Below are positions 3,426 to 9,326 of a stretch of DNA of 10,587 nt, piece by piece. Numbering within the stretch: position 1 is the first letter of the stretch; each line of letters begins with the position of its first letter. The notes under the pieces were generated by a model. That model searched no databases. It saw only the letters and a list, made by a program, of their open reading frames with translations, and was not told the DNA's origin. The stretch is from Deltaproteobacteria bacterium (GTDB lineage Bacteria > Bdellovibrionota_F > JAHFAK01). Both the position numbers and the translations under genes were made by a program. The stretch spans positions 5,949-16,535 of the forward strand of contig JAHFAK010000045.1 in NCBI GenBank assembly GCA_023250585.1. The letters are read 5' to 3'.

Positions 3426-5354
3426 TTGAATAAACCTATCATTTTTTTATTCTCATTATTATGTCTTTTCCCCCCAGATGTGTTAAGCAATCAAACTGAA
3501 AAAAATAATTCAATTGAAAAATTTATTGAAAGAGCTGTCACACAAAAACTCTATCTTGACCCTCAATGGATTAAGCTGGGCCATTACCAAAAAACAATGT
3601 TTGGAGATTGGAAGAGTCAAGCTGATGGAGAAAACTTTTTTCTTTCTCATCAGGGGAAGAATGATCCAAAAATTGAACTTGAAAAAACACTGAGAGGATT
3701 TTTTCAAGAAGCTTCTGACGTGGCTGATGATCATCCTATCTGTAGATTTCCTGCGCGCTTTCTTTGGCTGAATAACAAACTTTCAATTGACCCAAACTTA
3801 CTACCAAGGACAACATGTCCAGATCTTAGAAAGTTTTTAAAAGAACTCAATGCTCAATCAGTTACATTAGTATTCTCATCGTATTACTTAAATAATCCTT
3901 CTTCGGCTTTTGGACATACGTTGTTACGCATTAATAAAACTCCTCGAAGTGAGTCTGATAAACATCATGAGTTGCTCGACTATGGAATCAATTACGCAGC
4001 AGTTCCCGACACATATTTTGCGCCAATTTATGCATTTAAAGGCCTGACAGGTTTTTTTAAAGGAACCTTTCAGCGCATTCCTTATTATTATAAAGTTAGA
4101 GAATACAATGACTTTGAATCACGTGACTTATGGGAATATGACTTAGCGCTTACTCCTCAGCAACTACTTATGCTGACTCTCCATCTCTGGGAGCTTGGGC
4201 ATACGTATTTTGATTATTTTTATCTTACTGAAAATTGTTCTTATCACATTTTAAGCCTTATAGAAGTTGCAAATCCTGAACTTAAACTGACTGAAACCCT
4301 TAAATTTCCTGTCATACCTGCGGATACAGTCAAAGCTTTGTTTAACCAGCCGAACCTCATAGCAGATATCCATTATCGTCCATCGCTTCGTACACAATTT
4401 TTAGAACGAATTAAAAAAATTGATGAAAATAAAAAATCGTTTGTTGTGAAGCTTGCAAAAAATCCGGATCTTTCTTTGCCTTCATCTATATCTGAGCAAG
4501 AAAAAATAGAGATACTCGATGCAAGCCTTGATTTGGTTGATTTTCAATATGCAGAAGAATTACTCAAAAAGCCTGAGGGAAAAGGACAAAAAAATAAATA
4601 TGAGCTTATGAAAAAAAGAGCTGCTCTATTAAAGCCATCCAAACCATTGGCACTGAAGCCTCCAAAAAATAAGATGATTCATAATGGCCACGGCTCATGG
4701 AGAATAGGCACTGGCTATGGTTACGAAAATATAGATAAAAATTTTATTGCTCTCGACTTGCGCTTATCCCTGCATGATCTTGTTGATCCGGTTGAAGGAT
4801 ATTCTGATTTTTTTCAACTTGAATTTTTTAATACTCGTATGCGCTTATTTATTGAAAATAAAAATGTTGAGCTAACAGAATTAGATTTGGTGCATATTGT
4901 CTCACTCACTCCGCTCAGTCCTTTTGATCTTAGTCCATCATGGAAGTTTTCACTTGGCACTCGAACACTATACGATGGAAGCTGTAATGCATGTATGGCG
5001 GGAGTTACAGAATTAGGCGGGGGAGCTACAATGGCATTTTTTGATAATGCCATTATTACTTTTGTTCTTTTGGATACTACACTTCTTGGTTCCCCTGAAT
5101 TTCATGAATTTGGAGATCTTCCTCTACGTGCAGGATTTGGATCTTTTGGAGGGCTACGTTTTCGAATCAATGATAGCCTTATTTTACTTATCAAAGGAGA
5201 AAGTCTTTTCTTTCCTACACAAGACAAGAATCATATATGGAAGGTGCAACCAGTACTTCGATGGGAATTTATGAAGAATATAGCTTTTAATCTTGAAGGA
5301 AAAAAATCAAATACTGAATGGGAGGGACGAGCCCTCTTCTATTATTACTTTTAG
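3426..5354 (+). CDS. DUF4105 (Lnb N-terminal-like) periplasmic protein with C-terminal beta-barrel-like region
   Basis: This is a 642-residue envelope protein. The start is TTG at 3426: an in-frame stop at 3408 leaves no ATG or GTG ahead of the signal peptide (MNKPIIFLFSLLCLFPPDVLS). No clear SD exists, so translation is probably coupled to the DUF3015 gene that ends 5 bp upstream. The central region, about residues 145-330, carries the DUF4105 hallmarks SSYYLNNPSSAFGHTLLRI and TENCSYH. The His of FGHT and the Cys of ENCS are candidate catalytic residues of a papain/NlpC-like fold (inference). Residues about 420-642 alternate hydrophobic and polar residues, are rich in glycine and aromatics, and end in YYYF, an outer-membrane barrel-type C-terminal Phe. 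I recall some databases linking this family to Lnb, a lipoprotein N-acyltransferase; I cannot confirm that for this protein. The gene ends inside the left arm of the hairpin at 5353. Confidence 0.87.
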   Translation: MNKPIIFLFSLLCLFPPDVLSNQTEKNNSIEKFIERAVTQKLYLDPQWIKLGHYQKTMFGDWKSQADGENFFLSHQGKNDPKIELEKTLRGFFQEASDVADDHPICRFPARFLWLNNKLSIDPNLLPRTTCPDLRKFLKELNAQSVTLVFSSYYLNNPSSAFGHTLLRINKTPRSESDKHHELLDYGINYAAVPDTYFAPIYAFKGLTGFFKGTFQRIPYYYKVREYNDFESRDLWEYDLALTPQQLLMLTLHLWELGHTYFDYFYLTENCSYHILSLIEVANPELKLTETLKFPVIPADTVKALFNQPNLIADIHYRPSLRTQFLERIKKIDENKKSFVVKLAKNPDLSLPSSISEQEKIEILDASLDLVDFQYAEELLKKPEGKGQKNKYELMKKRAALLKPSKPLALKPPKNKMIHNGHGSWRIGTGYGYENIDKNFIALDLRLSLHDLVDPVEGYSDFFQLEFFNTRMRLFIENKNVELTELDLVHIVSLTPLSPFDLSPSWKFSLGTRTLYDGSCNACMAGVTELGGGATMAFFDNAIITFVLLDTTLLGSPEFHEFGDLPLRAGFGSFGGLRFRINDSLILLIKGESLFFPTQDKNHIWKVQPVLRWEFMKNIAFNLEGKKSNTEWEGRALFYYYF

Positions 5355-5478
5355 GAACCTTTCAAAAAGGCCCATCTGCATCGTTGCACGCAAAACCACA
5401 ATCCTCACATACTACCCGAGTATGCTCCGGTTGCGGCTTTGCATGCGCCTCGCATCTGGACCTTTTTGAGAGGTTCCT
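5353..5478. terminator. Large imperfect hairpin between convergent genes, likely bidirectional terminator
   Basis: The outer arms 5353-5374 and 5457-5478 match at 20 of 22 positions (AGGAACCTyTCAAAAAGGyC core). A second matching block, GCAyGCAAArCCrCAAy, lies further in with only transition differences. The hairpin closes on CATACT (5408-5413), loop ACCCG, and AGTATG (5419-5424). AAAAAGG on one side and CCTTTTT on the other flank the GC-rich inner part, the form expected of a terminator working in both directions. The left arm includes the last two bases of the DUF4105 stop codon, and the epimerase gene ends 28 bp beyond the right arm. The 'CCATCTGC...GATGCG' design resembles a gene-end palindrome I recall from deltaproteobacterial genomes. 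Confidence 0.8.
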
Positions 5479-5505
5479 TGAAATACGAGTTTTTCAGAAA
5501 GTCCT

Positions 5506-6644: not shown

Positions 6645-6715
6645 GTCATTCCCGCGAAGGCGGGAATCCAGAAATAAAGTTTACAAGGCTGGATCCCCGC
6701 TTCCGCGGGGATGAC
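6645..6715. repeat. REP/BIME-like palindromic pair (two inverted 27-bp arms)
   Basis: Two 27-bp arms, 6645-6671 and 6689-6715, lie in inverted orientation around a 17-bp AT-rich spacer and agree at 23 of 27 positions. Each arm also folds on itself: ATTCCCGC/GCGGGAAT (6648-6655 with 6660-6667) and ATCCCCGC/GCGGGGAT (6693-6700 with 6705-6712), with 4-nt loops. The arm type GTCATTCCCGCGAAGGCGGG is a very widespread bacterial repeat motif, similar to REP and Neisseria dRS3 sequences. Such elements are often mobilised in trans by REP-associated tyrosine transposases (RAYT); none is in this window. It sits between the divergent epimerase and PFK promoters and could also act as a hairpin in RNA. Confidence 0.85.
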
Positions 6716-6797: not shown

Positions 6798-7838
6798 ATG
6801 AAAATTGGTATATTAACTGGTGGGGGTGATTGTCCCGGACTCAACGCGGTTATCCGAGCCGTGGTTCGACGTTCATTACGATATGGTCATAATGTGACAG
6901 GGATTATGCAAGGTTGGAAAGGACTTCTCGAAAAAAAAACCCGCGATTTAGCAATTAACAATGTCTCAGGCATCTTACACGTTGGAGGTACTATTCTAGG
7001 TACTTCCCGGACAAATCCTTATAAAGCAAAAGAAACTGAAAATGAACTCAAGCGTAATTTCAAAGAACTCTCACTCGATGCTCTCGTTGCTGTCGGCGGG
7101 GAGGATACGTTAGGTGTTGCGAATAAACTCTTTAAAGATGGTTTTCCTGTTGTAGGTGTTCCCAAAACAATCGATAATGATTTAAATGGAACTGATTTTA
7201 CGTTCGGCTTTGATACAGCAATTACAATTGCAACAGAAGCAATTGATCGCTTGCATACAACTGCTGAATCTCATAATCGTGTTATTGTCTGCGAAGTCAT
7301 GGGACGCCATGCAGGCTGGATTGCAACATATGCAGGTATTGCAGGAGGCGCGGATTATATTCTCATCCCTGAAAAAGAAACAAATATTCATGATCTCTGT
7401 AATGCTATCCAAGAACGATCATTACGCGGTAAAACCTTTAGTATTATTGTGGTTGCCGAAGGAGCAAAAATTTTTGATCCGGAAGAAAAAAAAGATACAG
7501 AAATATATGCAAAAACAGAGCAAGATGAATTTGGTCATGCAATCCTTGGTGGCATAGGAAATCTCCTCGGTCAAAAGATAGAAAAAATTACGGGTCATGA
7601 AACTCGTGTAAGTGTGCTTGGCCATATTCAACGCGGTGGTTCACCTACACCGCATGATCGTGTTCTGGCTACACGATTCGGAGTTCGTGCCATCGATCTT
7701 GTTAACCAAAAAAACTTTGGGAAAATGGTAGCGCTTCAAGGTAATGAAATTGTTGATGTCTCCCTCTCTGAAGCTGTAAAAGAGCTTAAAACAGTAGATA
7801 TGCGGCTATATGAAATAGCAAAGGTATTTTTTGGATGA
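6798..7838 (+). CDS. pfp: Phosphofructokinase with pyrophosphate-type active site (PPi-PFK)
   Basis: This enzyme phosphorylates fructose 6-phosphate to the 1,6-bisphosphate in glycolysis. It has 346 residues, a normal length for the group III ('mixed') PFKA family. Motifs are GGGDCPGLNA (8-17), GGEDT (100-104), PKTIDND (122-128, catalytic Asp126), MGRHAGW (168-174), PEKE, and LGHIQRGGSPTPHDR. The phosphoryl-donor determinants are Asp103, where ATP-dependent enzymes have Gly (E. coli Gly104, GGDGS), and Lys123, where E. coli has Gly124. Asp plus Lys at these sites is the known signature of PPi-dependent enzymes such as that of Amycolatopsis methanolica. I therefore predict diphosphate--fructose-6-phosphate 1-phosphotransferase, a reversible and ATP-sparing enzyme, although automatic annotation would likely say ATP-dependent. 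The start ATG has a strong AGGAGG five bases upstream. A 41-bp perfect inverted repeat begins 13 bp after the stop. Confidence 0.93.
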   Translation: MKIGILTGGGDCPGLNAVIRAVVRRSLRYGHNVTGIMQGWKGLLEKKTRDLAINNVSGILHVGGTILGTSRTNPYKAKETENELKRNFKELSLDALVAVGGEDTLGVANKLFKDGFPVVGVPKTIDNDLNGTDFTFGFDTAITIATEAIDRLHTTAESHNRVIVCEVMGRHAGWIATYAGIAGGADYILIPEKETNIHDLCNAIQERSLRGKTFSIIVVAEGAKIFDPEEKKDTEIYAKTEQDEFGHAILGGIGNLLGQKIEKITGHETRVSVLGHIQRGGSPTPHDRVLATRFGVRAIDLVNQKNFGKMVALQGNEIVDVSLSEAVKELKTVDMRLYEIAKVFFG

Positions 7839-7851
7839 AAGAAAAGATACC

Positions 7852-7961
7852 GGGAGAGTGGGTATGTGTTTTAAAAAAGTATATTTAAATTTGCTTCCTC
7901 TTATAAAACTTCACTGAGCAAAATTTAAATATACTTTTTTAAAACACATACCCACTCTCCC
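7852..7961. repeat. Long perfect inverted repeat (41-bp arms, 28-bp loop)
   Basis: Arms 7852-7892 and 7921-7961 are exact reverse complements over 41 bp. The outer part is G-rich (GGGAGAGTGGGTATGTG on the left arm) and the inner part is AT-rich, including TTTTAAAAAA. The loop is 7893-7920. The hairpin starts 13 bp after the PFK stop and ends 22 bp before the NUDIX-NadC start, between two genes on the same strand. It is not followed by a T-run, so it is not a textbook intrinsic terminator. No target-site duplication is evident at its edges. Confidence 0.95.
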
Positions 7962-7983: not shown

Positions 7984-9201
7984 ATGAATAACAGAGTTAC
8001 TCCATTTTTAACGGTTGATATAATTATTAATCTCGAAAACAAAGGCATTATTCTCATTAAGCGAAAAAATCCTCCGTATGGCTGGGCGTTGCCGGGTGGT
8101 TTTGTTGATGTGGGTGAATCAGTTGAACATGCCGCAATTCGTGAAGCAAAAGAAGAAACTAATTTAGATATTTGTAATCTCAAACAATTTCATGTCTATT
8201 CAGATCCTTCACGAGATCCACGAATGCATACCGTTGCAACTGTTTTTACTGCCAATGCTATAGGGACTCCAAGAGCTGGTGATGATGCACAAGAATTCAT
8301 GATCAGCGATTTGTATAATCTTCCAAAACTTGCTTTTGACCATGATATCATCGTGACTGATTATAAAAATCAATTCGCGCCACAAACATTAGCACATGAT
8401 CTCATCAGCATTGCAGAAAAAGAAGATTTTCCTTTTGGTGATTGTACTTCAGAAATTATTTTTGATGATAAGCACACCTCTAAGGCACAAATACTTGTTA
8501 AGGAAGACTGTATTATATCAGGGTTACAGGTCATTGAACAGATTGTCAAAAGACACCATAAAAACATCTCCTGCGACTTTCATTATAAAAACGGAGATCG
8601 AGTGAATAAGGGAAAGAATATTGCCACTATCACCGGTACAACAAAACTTCTTCTGACATACGAACGACTCATGTTGAATTTTCTCCAGCGTCTTTCCGGT
8701 ATTGCGACGTATACTCGTCAATTTACGGAAAAGATGGGAAATCATATTGAAATTCTTGATACGCGAAAAACAACTCCAGGATTACGATATCTTGAAAAAG
8801 AAGCCGTTGTACATGGGGGCGGGAAAAACCATCGTATGAATCTTTCCGATATGATCATGATTAAAGATACGCATATTCGTGCCGTAGGTTCGATTACCGA
8901 AGCGTTACGAAAAATTCGAAATGCTCACTTACATAAAAAAGTTGAAGTCGAAGTACGAACCATCGAAGAGGTATATGAAACGCTCTCAAATCCACCCGAT
9001 ATTATAATGTTAGATAACATGTCTTATGCTGACATGCAAAAAGCAATTCAGTTAATTAATAAAAAAAGCAAAATTGAGCTATCTGGAGGAGTATCATTGG
9101 ATTCAATCAATGAATATAAAAATTTAGATATAGATTACTGTTCAGTGGGCTCGCTTACTCATTCAGCTCGTGCTATCGATATATCAATGAAAATAGAATA
9201 A
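7984..9201 (+). CDS. nadC: Fusion: NUDIX hydrolase (ADP-ribose pyrophosphatase-like) + quinolinate phosphoribosyltransferase NadC
   Basis: A 405-residue two-domain protein. Residues 1-133 are a NUDIX domain with a box at 39-61 (G-x5-E45-x7-R53-E-A-K-E-E-T-N-L; the usual Gly before the last residue is Asn). The [21 protein letters not shown] and AGDDAQE stretches resemble archaeal/bacterial ADP-ribose pyrophosphatases. Residues 135-405 are a full-length NadC, which makes nicotinate mononucleotide, PPi and CO2 from quinolinate and PRPP. It shows [27 protein letters not shown] (259-268), GGGKNHR (278-284), KDTHI (294-298, usually KDNHI), [11 protein letters not shown] (367-369) and SVGSLTHS. A weak AGGT (7973-7976) precedes the ATG. 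No nadA or nadB is nearby, so the quinolinate source is unseen. The fusion could couple NAD-breakdown products to NAD synthesis or clean up nucleotides (inference). Confidence 0.93.
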
Positions 9202-9207
9202 GTACTT

Positions 9208-9326
9208 TAAGAGCGAGGTGCCTATCTTCTTTTTTATTATATATCGAGCGCGCTTTCCTGTTCTTAAAATTATTATGGAAGCGACGTCGATATATAATAA
9301 AAAAGAAGATAGGCACCTCGCTCTTA
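9208..9326. repeat. Long perfect inverted repeat (40-bp arms, 39-bp loop) between convergent nadC and folA
   Basis: Arms 9208-9247 and 9287-9326 are exact reverse complements over 40 bp (left arm begins TAAGAGCGAGGTGCCTATC, then a T-rich and AT-rich inner part). Inside the loop, CGCTTTCC (9251-9258) can pair with GGAAGCG (9277-9283) across a small internal loop, extending the stem. The left arm begins 6 bp after the nadC stop, and the outermost three bases of the right arm are the folA stop codon. The position fits a shared 3'-end structure for two converging transcripts, but no T-run follows either arm. Confidence 0.95.

Follow-up and report, generated by a model that had tools for sequence, protein, structure and literature searches.

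The palindrome at positions 7852–7961 of the window—that is, of the whole 10,587-nucleotide stretch of DNA analyzed—lies between a phosphofructokinase gene (pfp), which ends at 7838, and a gene for a NUDIX–NadC fusion protein, which starts at 7984. Its left arm (7852–7892, forward strand) and right arm (7921–7961, forward strand) are exact reverse complements over 41 nt (100% complementarity, no mismatch), and the 28-nt spacer between them, GCTTCCTCTTATAAAACTTCACTGAGCA (7893–7920, forward strand), defines what is here called family A and is the same in all five copies compared. The perfect 41-bp inverted repeat described in an earlier note was confirmed in its coordinates, arm length, and complementarity. 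The hairpin was calculated to fold with −64.8 kcal/mol as RNA (z −13.6) and −43.5 kcal/mol as DNA (z −12.5), values reached by no shuffle in either case. The earlier note was right to reject an intrinsic terminator, with no T-run following the stem on either strand and no entry at 7852–7961 in a terminator scan of the window. Furthermore, no Rfam family matches the hairpin at the gathering score. The downstream gene (7984–9201) joins a NUDIX domain to NadC (quinolinate phosphoribosyltransferase); matches to the NUDIX part span many phyla at 55–69% identity, and the best match listed for the protein, at 44% identity, lies over the NadC part.

A hairpin of the same build, belonging to family B, is located 1.25 kb downstream of the first, at 9208–9326. 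It consists, on the forward strand, of a left arm (9208–9247), the spacer GCGCGCTTTCCTGTTCTTAAAATTATTATGGAAGCGACG (9248–9286), and a right arm (9287–9326) reaching into the 3′ end of a convergent DHFR gene, with the inner 40 bp of the arms paired perfectly. The window also contains a repeat with imperfect 34-bp arms at 5346–5485 (AGGAACCTTTCAAAAAGGCCC), which has many copies, one of them directly adjoining a family A hairpin at L054:5487, and a REP-like palindrome at 6645–6715 (GTCATTCCCGCGAAGGCGGGAATCCAG), which is multi-copy in the genome. A further inverted-repeat family with variable spacers (ACCGAAACGTGCCCGGCAACTTTCGGTC) was noticed at L107:672-791, L092:5128-5254, L085:6826-6943, and L119:123-252.

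The genome of origin (2.24 Mb in 164 contigs) contains at least 80 scattered hairpin repeats of families A and B, which have a similar arm pattern and different spacers. The family A spacer occurs in six hairpins genome-wide, and the family B spacer has 76 pattern matches, including 9208–9326, against none for a reversed control pattern. That 7852–7961 might be the only such repeat in the genome, an outcome considered in the earlier note, is contradicted by these spacer matches, which show it to be multi-copy. Copies were located by BLAST with the spacer sequence alone, without arm information, and each of the 65 copies so found in 1.0 Mb (6 A and 59 B) proved to be part of a long inverted repeat, with a median arm of 39 bp and perfect arms in 48. 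The same 1.0 Mb contains 85 inverted repeats with a score of at least 25—a density that is overstated, because these stretches were in part picked for holding hits—whereas none was found in 386 kb of the only same-class relative or in 364 kb from 20 other genomes.

Outside this genome, at the sensitivities used, the exact B spacer was found in no other hairpin in GTDB representatives or IMG/VR, and the exact A spacer in no other hairpin in IMG/VR. No family A hairpin was detected in plasmids or phages or in 59 other genomes, and no hairpin of the B element was found in 192 other genomes; short, weak A matches were all that these searches gave. The hairpin family is best read as lineage-specific, and no close relative showing an empty site exists.

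Among the 65 hairpins, 27 form a MITE-borne class, all of family B and with GTAA...TTAC ends (4 were assigned by arm type or target duplication). In these, the larger element reads GTAATnCCTCAGTTA, hairpin, CTC(A)CCCCATTAACTGAGCYRTTAC, and in many of them it is flanked by 8-bp target duplications, exact in 10 copies and matching at 7 of 8 positions in 4 more. The direction of the spacer relative to the ends is one way in 14 copies and inverted in 13. The ends and duplications are absent from the other 38 hairpins, including all of family A and the window copy, with the exception of one A left end: in the copy at L051:5898, GTAATCCGGCAGTTAT stands directly at the arm, as in B copies, with 13 of the 15 bases of the left end in position. 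A search for target duplications at the ends of the arms gave none in any copy, the window copy included. The copies with target-site duplications that the earlier note held would speak for a MITE were found among the sister copies, and not at 7852–7961 itself; its main alternative, a non-autonomous mobile or cruciform element, was rightly named. The copies without ends, 7852–7961 among them, are probably older copies of the mobile element. In addition, GTAACAGCTCAGTTAATGGG ends of this kind enclose a different hairpin family (TGGATCCCGYGGTCAAGCC) at L078:410-575, L124:13247-13374, and L110:17041-17165, so that several hairpin cargoes share a single set of ends. Apparent MITE remnants at L083:8380-8425 and L075:180-225 retain a single end plus about 12 nt of an outer arm; the hairpin is missing, as though lost by deletion.

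No autonomous partner with matching ends was found in the genome. GTAA ends with 8-bp duplications resemble those of IS66; no IS66 transposase was found in the genome, which rules against an IS66-derived element. RAYT-like Y1 transposase genes are present, and a link to IS200/RAYT was rejected since none of them is flanked by these hairpins. One match to an IS630-type transposase was detected; the transposases other than IS66 were not linked to the family. An integron attC site was also considered as a candidate, on account of the conserved tips of the hairpins and the resemblance of the element ends to TTAAC...GTTA. A short peptide starting from an ATG in the arm, noticed by eye, was discarded, as its frame varies between copies and the ATG is often ATC.

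The arms differ strongly between copies and the spacers hardly at all: left-arm divergence is 37% in family A, 26% in MITE-borne B copies, and 41% in other B copies, with the spacers diverging by 0%, 4%, and 8%, respectively. The inner stem and loop are almost invariant across 22 B copies, and the outer ends are the least conserved part of the palindrome. Within each copy the arms nevertheless remain paired, without a mismatch over 36 bp in 43 of 62 copies (a set not picked for clean arms) and with mismatches at 25 of 2088 pairs in the 58 copies lacking an arm indel, 10 of them G–T and 6 A–C. Two-sided changes were found at 27 of 43 pairs in family A (11.6 expected from shuffles), with no pair showing one-sided changes only, and at 38 of 40 pairs in the 22 B copies, all without MITE ends and picked for clean arms; in the latter, two-sided cells numbered 233, compared with 53 in shuffles. 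Between nearest copies, 31 changes were mirrored and 7 one-sided, these pairs having copies in common so that pairwise counts are not independent events. In 48 of 52 copies, against an expectation of 16.7, homopolymer runs have the same length on the two sides of the stem, and mirrored transversions (258) outnumber mirrored transitions (178). The "recent origin" suggested earlier for the perfect arms is wrong in detail, in that the arms are far diverged between copies yet change together. A separate observation concerns the B hairpin at L099:1056-1172, whose perfect stem has grown into the spacer (arms of 47 bp, loop of 23 nt); on the 3′ side, the usual GCGACG has given way to the mirror image of GCGCGC, the outcome expected of a template switch.

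No copy lies inside a gene, even though a simple home-made gene caller marks 86% of the sample as coding. Tandem gaps hold 35 copies, divergent gaps 21, and convergent gaps 6, roughly as the available intergenic sequence would give and without preference for convergent gaps, and spacers in tandem gaps run along transcription in 20 cases and against it in 15. These counts argue against a terminator or a strand-specific RNA function. The copies without MITE ends, however, prefer short same-direction gaps, with a residual gap of at most 45 bp in 19 of 26 compared with 36% in the background, and usually stand about 25 nt or less from a stop codon; an effect on transcripts therefore stays possible, and this preference is not fully explained by template switching.

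Overall, the most probable reading, at roughly two in three, is that the hairpins are a palindromic, MITE-like family specific to this lineage, in which template-switch copying keeps the two arms of each copy identical, and that 7852–7961 is one old member of it. Part of the family, at least, is or was mobile in the manner of a MITE, with GTAA...TTAC ends flanked by 8-bp target duplications; by extension, the copies that lack ends, 7852–7961 among them, are likely to be of mobile origin too. Each copy could fold into a hairpin while single-stranded, and replication could then use one arm as the template for its partner; a mutation on one side would be either erased or passed on to the opposite arm, and the spacer may flip as this occurs. 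Such erasing and copying would keep stems near-perfect while the stems of different copies drift apart. Mirrored changes in close copies and inversion of the spacer between copies, both expected of template switching, point to it as the probable copying process. If the hairpin influences the expression of pfp or nadC, it would do so only incidentally.

Selection on an RNA stem is a doubtful alternative, in which an intercistronic element cut by RNase III, or blocking an exonuclease, would tune the flanking genes. It would accommodate the extreme covariation of the arms and the position of end-less copies in short same-direction gaps, mostly near stop codons; it is opposed by the random orientation of the spacer to transcription (16 with and 11 against in the end-less class), by 11 copies in divergent gaps, and by the lack of an Rfam match. 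Two-step compensation in RNA is also expected to pass through G–U intermediates and to show a transition bias, neither being expected of arm-to-arm copying, and here G–T mismatches barely exceed A–C mismatches and transversions predominate. Gene-end regulation by the hairpin is not supported; more specifically, the mRNA processing, nadC insulation, or pfp 3′-end protection proposed in the earlier note finds no support in a placement that follows intergenic sequence, a nearly equal spacer orientation, and G–U pairs hardly more frequent than A–C mismatches. An ordinary intrinsic terminator or a chance palindrome, for which only the position between two same-strand genes would speak, is extremely improbable given the missing T-run, the 41-bp arms, the 28-nt spacer, and the lack of preference for convergent gaps; the number of copies and their positions already refute it.

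About as doubtful as selection on an RNA stem is a functional DNA site. In this reading, an extruded hairpin or cruciform would present the conserved spacer at its tip to a recognizing protein, with a role in chromosome organization, replication, or recombination, and selection would keep the arms pairable. The contrast between spacer divergence (0–8%) and arm divergence (26–41%), the near-invariant inner stem and loop of the 22 B copies, and a placement independent of orientation are consistent with such a site, but families A and B share one architecture with unrelated spacers, and part of the family is plainly borne by a mobile element. Moreover, a 40-bp stem should tolerate single mismatches, so selection alone would not account for near-perfect arms. 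Template switching alone leaves the near-constant spacer beside strongly diverged arms unexplained. An equally tentative proposal is a mobile hairpin that would be recognized at its conserved tip and re-made via a single-stranded hairpin, one arm being copied from the other in each round; arm sequence would then quickly become variable, with pairing and tip preserved. A search for a reverse transcriptase able to re-copy the arms found none.

SbcCD is the nuclease that normally cuts long hairpins. SbcC was undetected in this genome and registered in 14 of 14 control genomes, and the sole SbcD-like match scores better as a cAMP phosphodiesterase; with the assembly being about 97% complete, absence of SbcCD is likely, not certain. 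Its loss may be a reason why long hairpins are tolerated, and makes a link between palindrome-cleaving nucleases and palindrome load testable. Perfect covariation usually counts as proof that an RNA stem is functional; it is nearly maximal here, yet orientation, wobble pairs, and nearest-copy mirroring argue for templating at the DNA level. This is a warning for covariation-based RNA discovery, and with its roughly 80 natural replicates the genome lends itself to measuring template-switch copying.

Several known systems share features with this family. Like MITEs, the hairpins are short non-coding intergenic repeats, a subset of B having defined ends and 8-bp target duplications; unlike MITEs, they have long perfect arms that co-vary between copies, palindromes whose outer ends are least conserved, and copies such as 7852–7961 without a target duplication. 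REPs are described as palindromes of 20–40 bp with an end tag (PMC3733652). Many intergenic palindromes and RAYT-like Y1 genes recall REP/BIME systems with RAYT transposases, from which the present family differs in that its arms of about 40 bp vary around a constant tip and that none of the Y1 genes has the hairpins beside it. In the mitochondria of Nematomorpha, too, a single genome contains many long, perfect inverted repeats (PMC6649704), but those are coding palindromes inside genes, whereas the hairpins described here are strictly intergenic and share a spacer. A further known system is template switching, which has been described as homogenizing arms and inverting spacers (PMC8604942) and as maintaining stems (PMC8794818), together with quasipalindrome correction (van Noort 2003, as cited in PMC10434271). 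Mirrored changes and spacer inversion are common to both; the published cases are single repeats, unlike the family of at least 80 copies with arms of nearly 40 bp found here.
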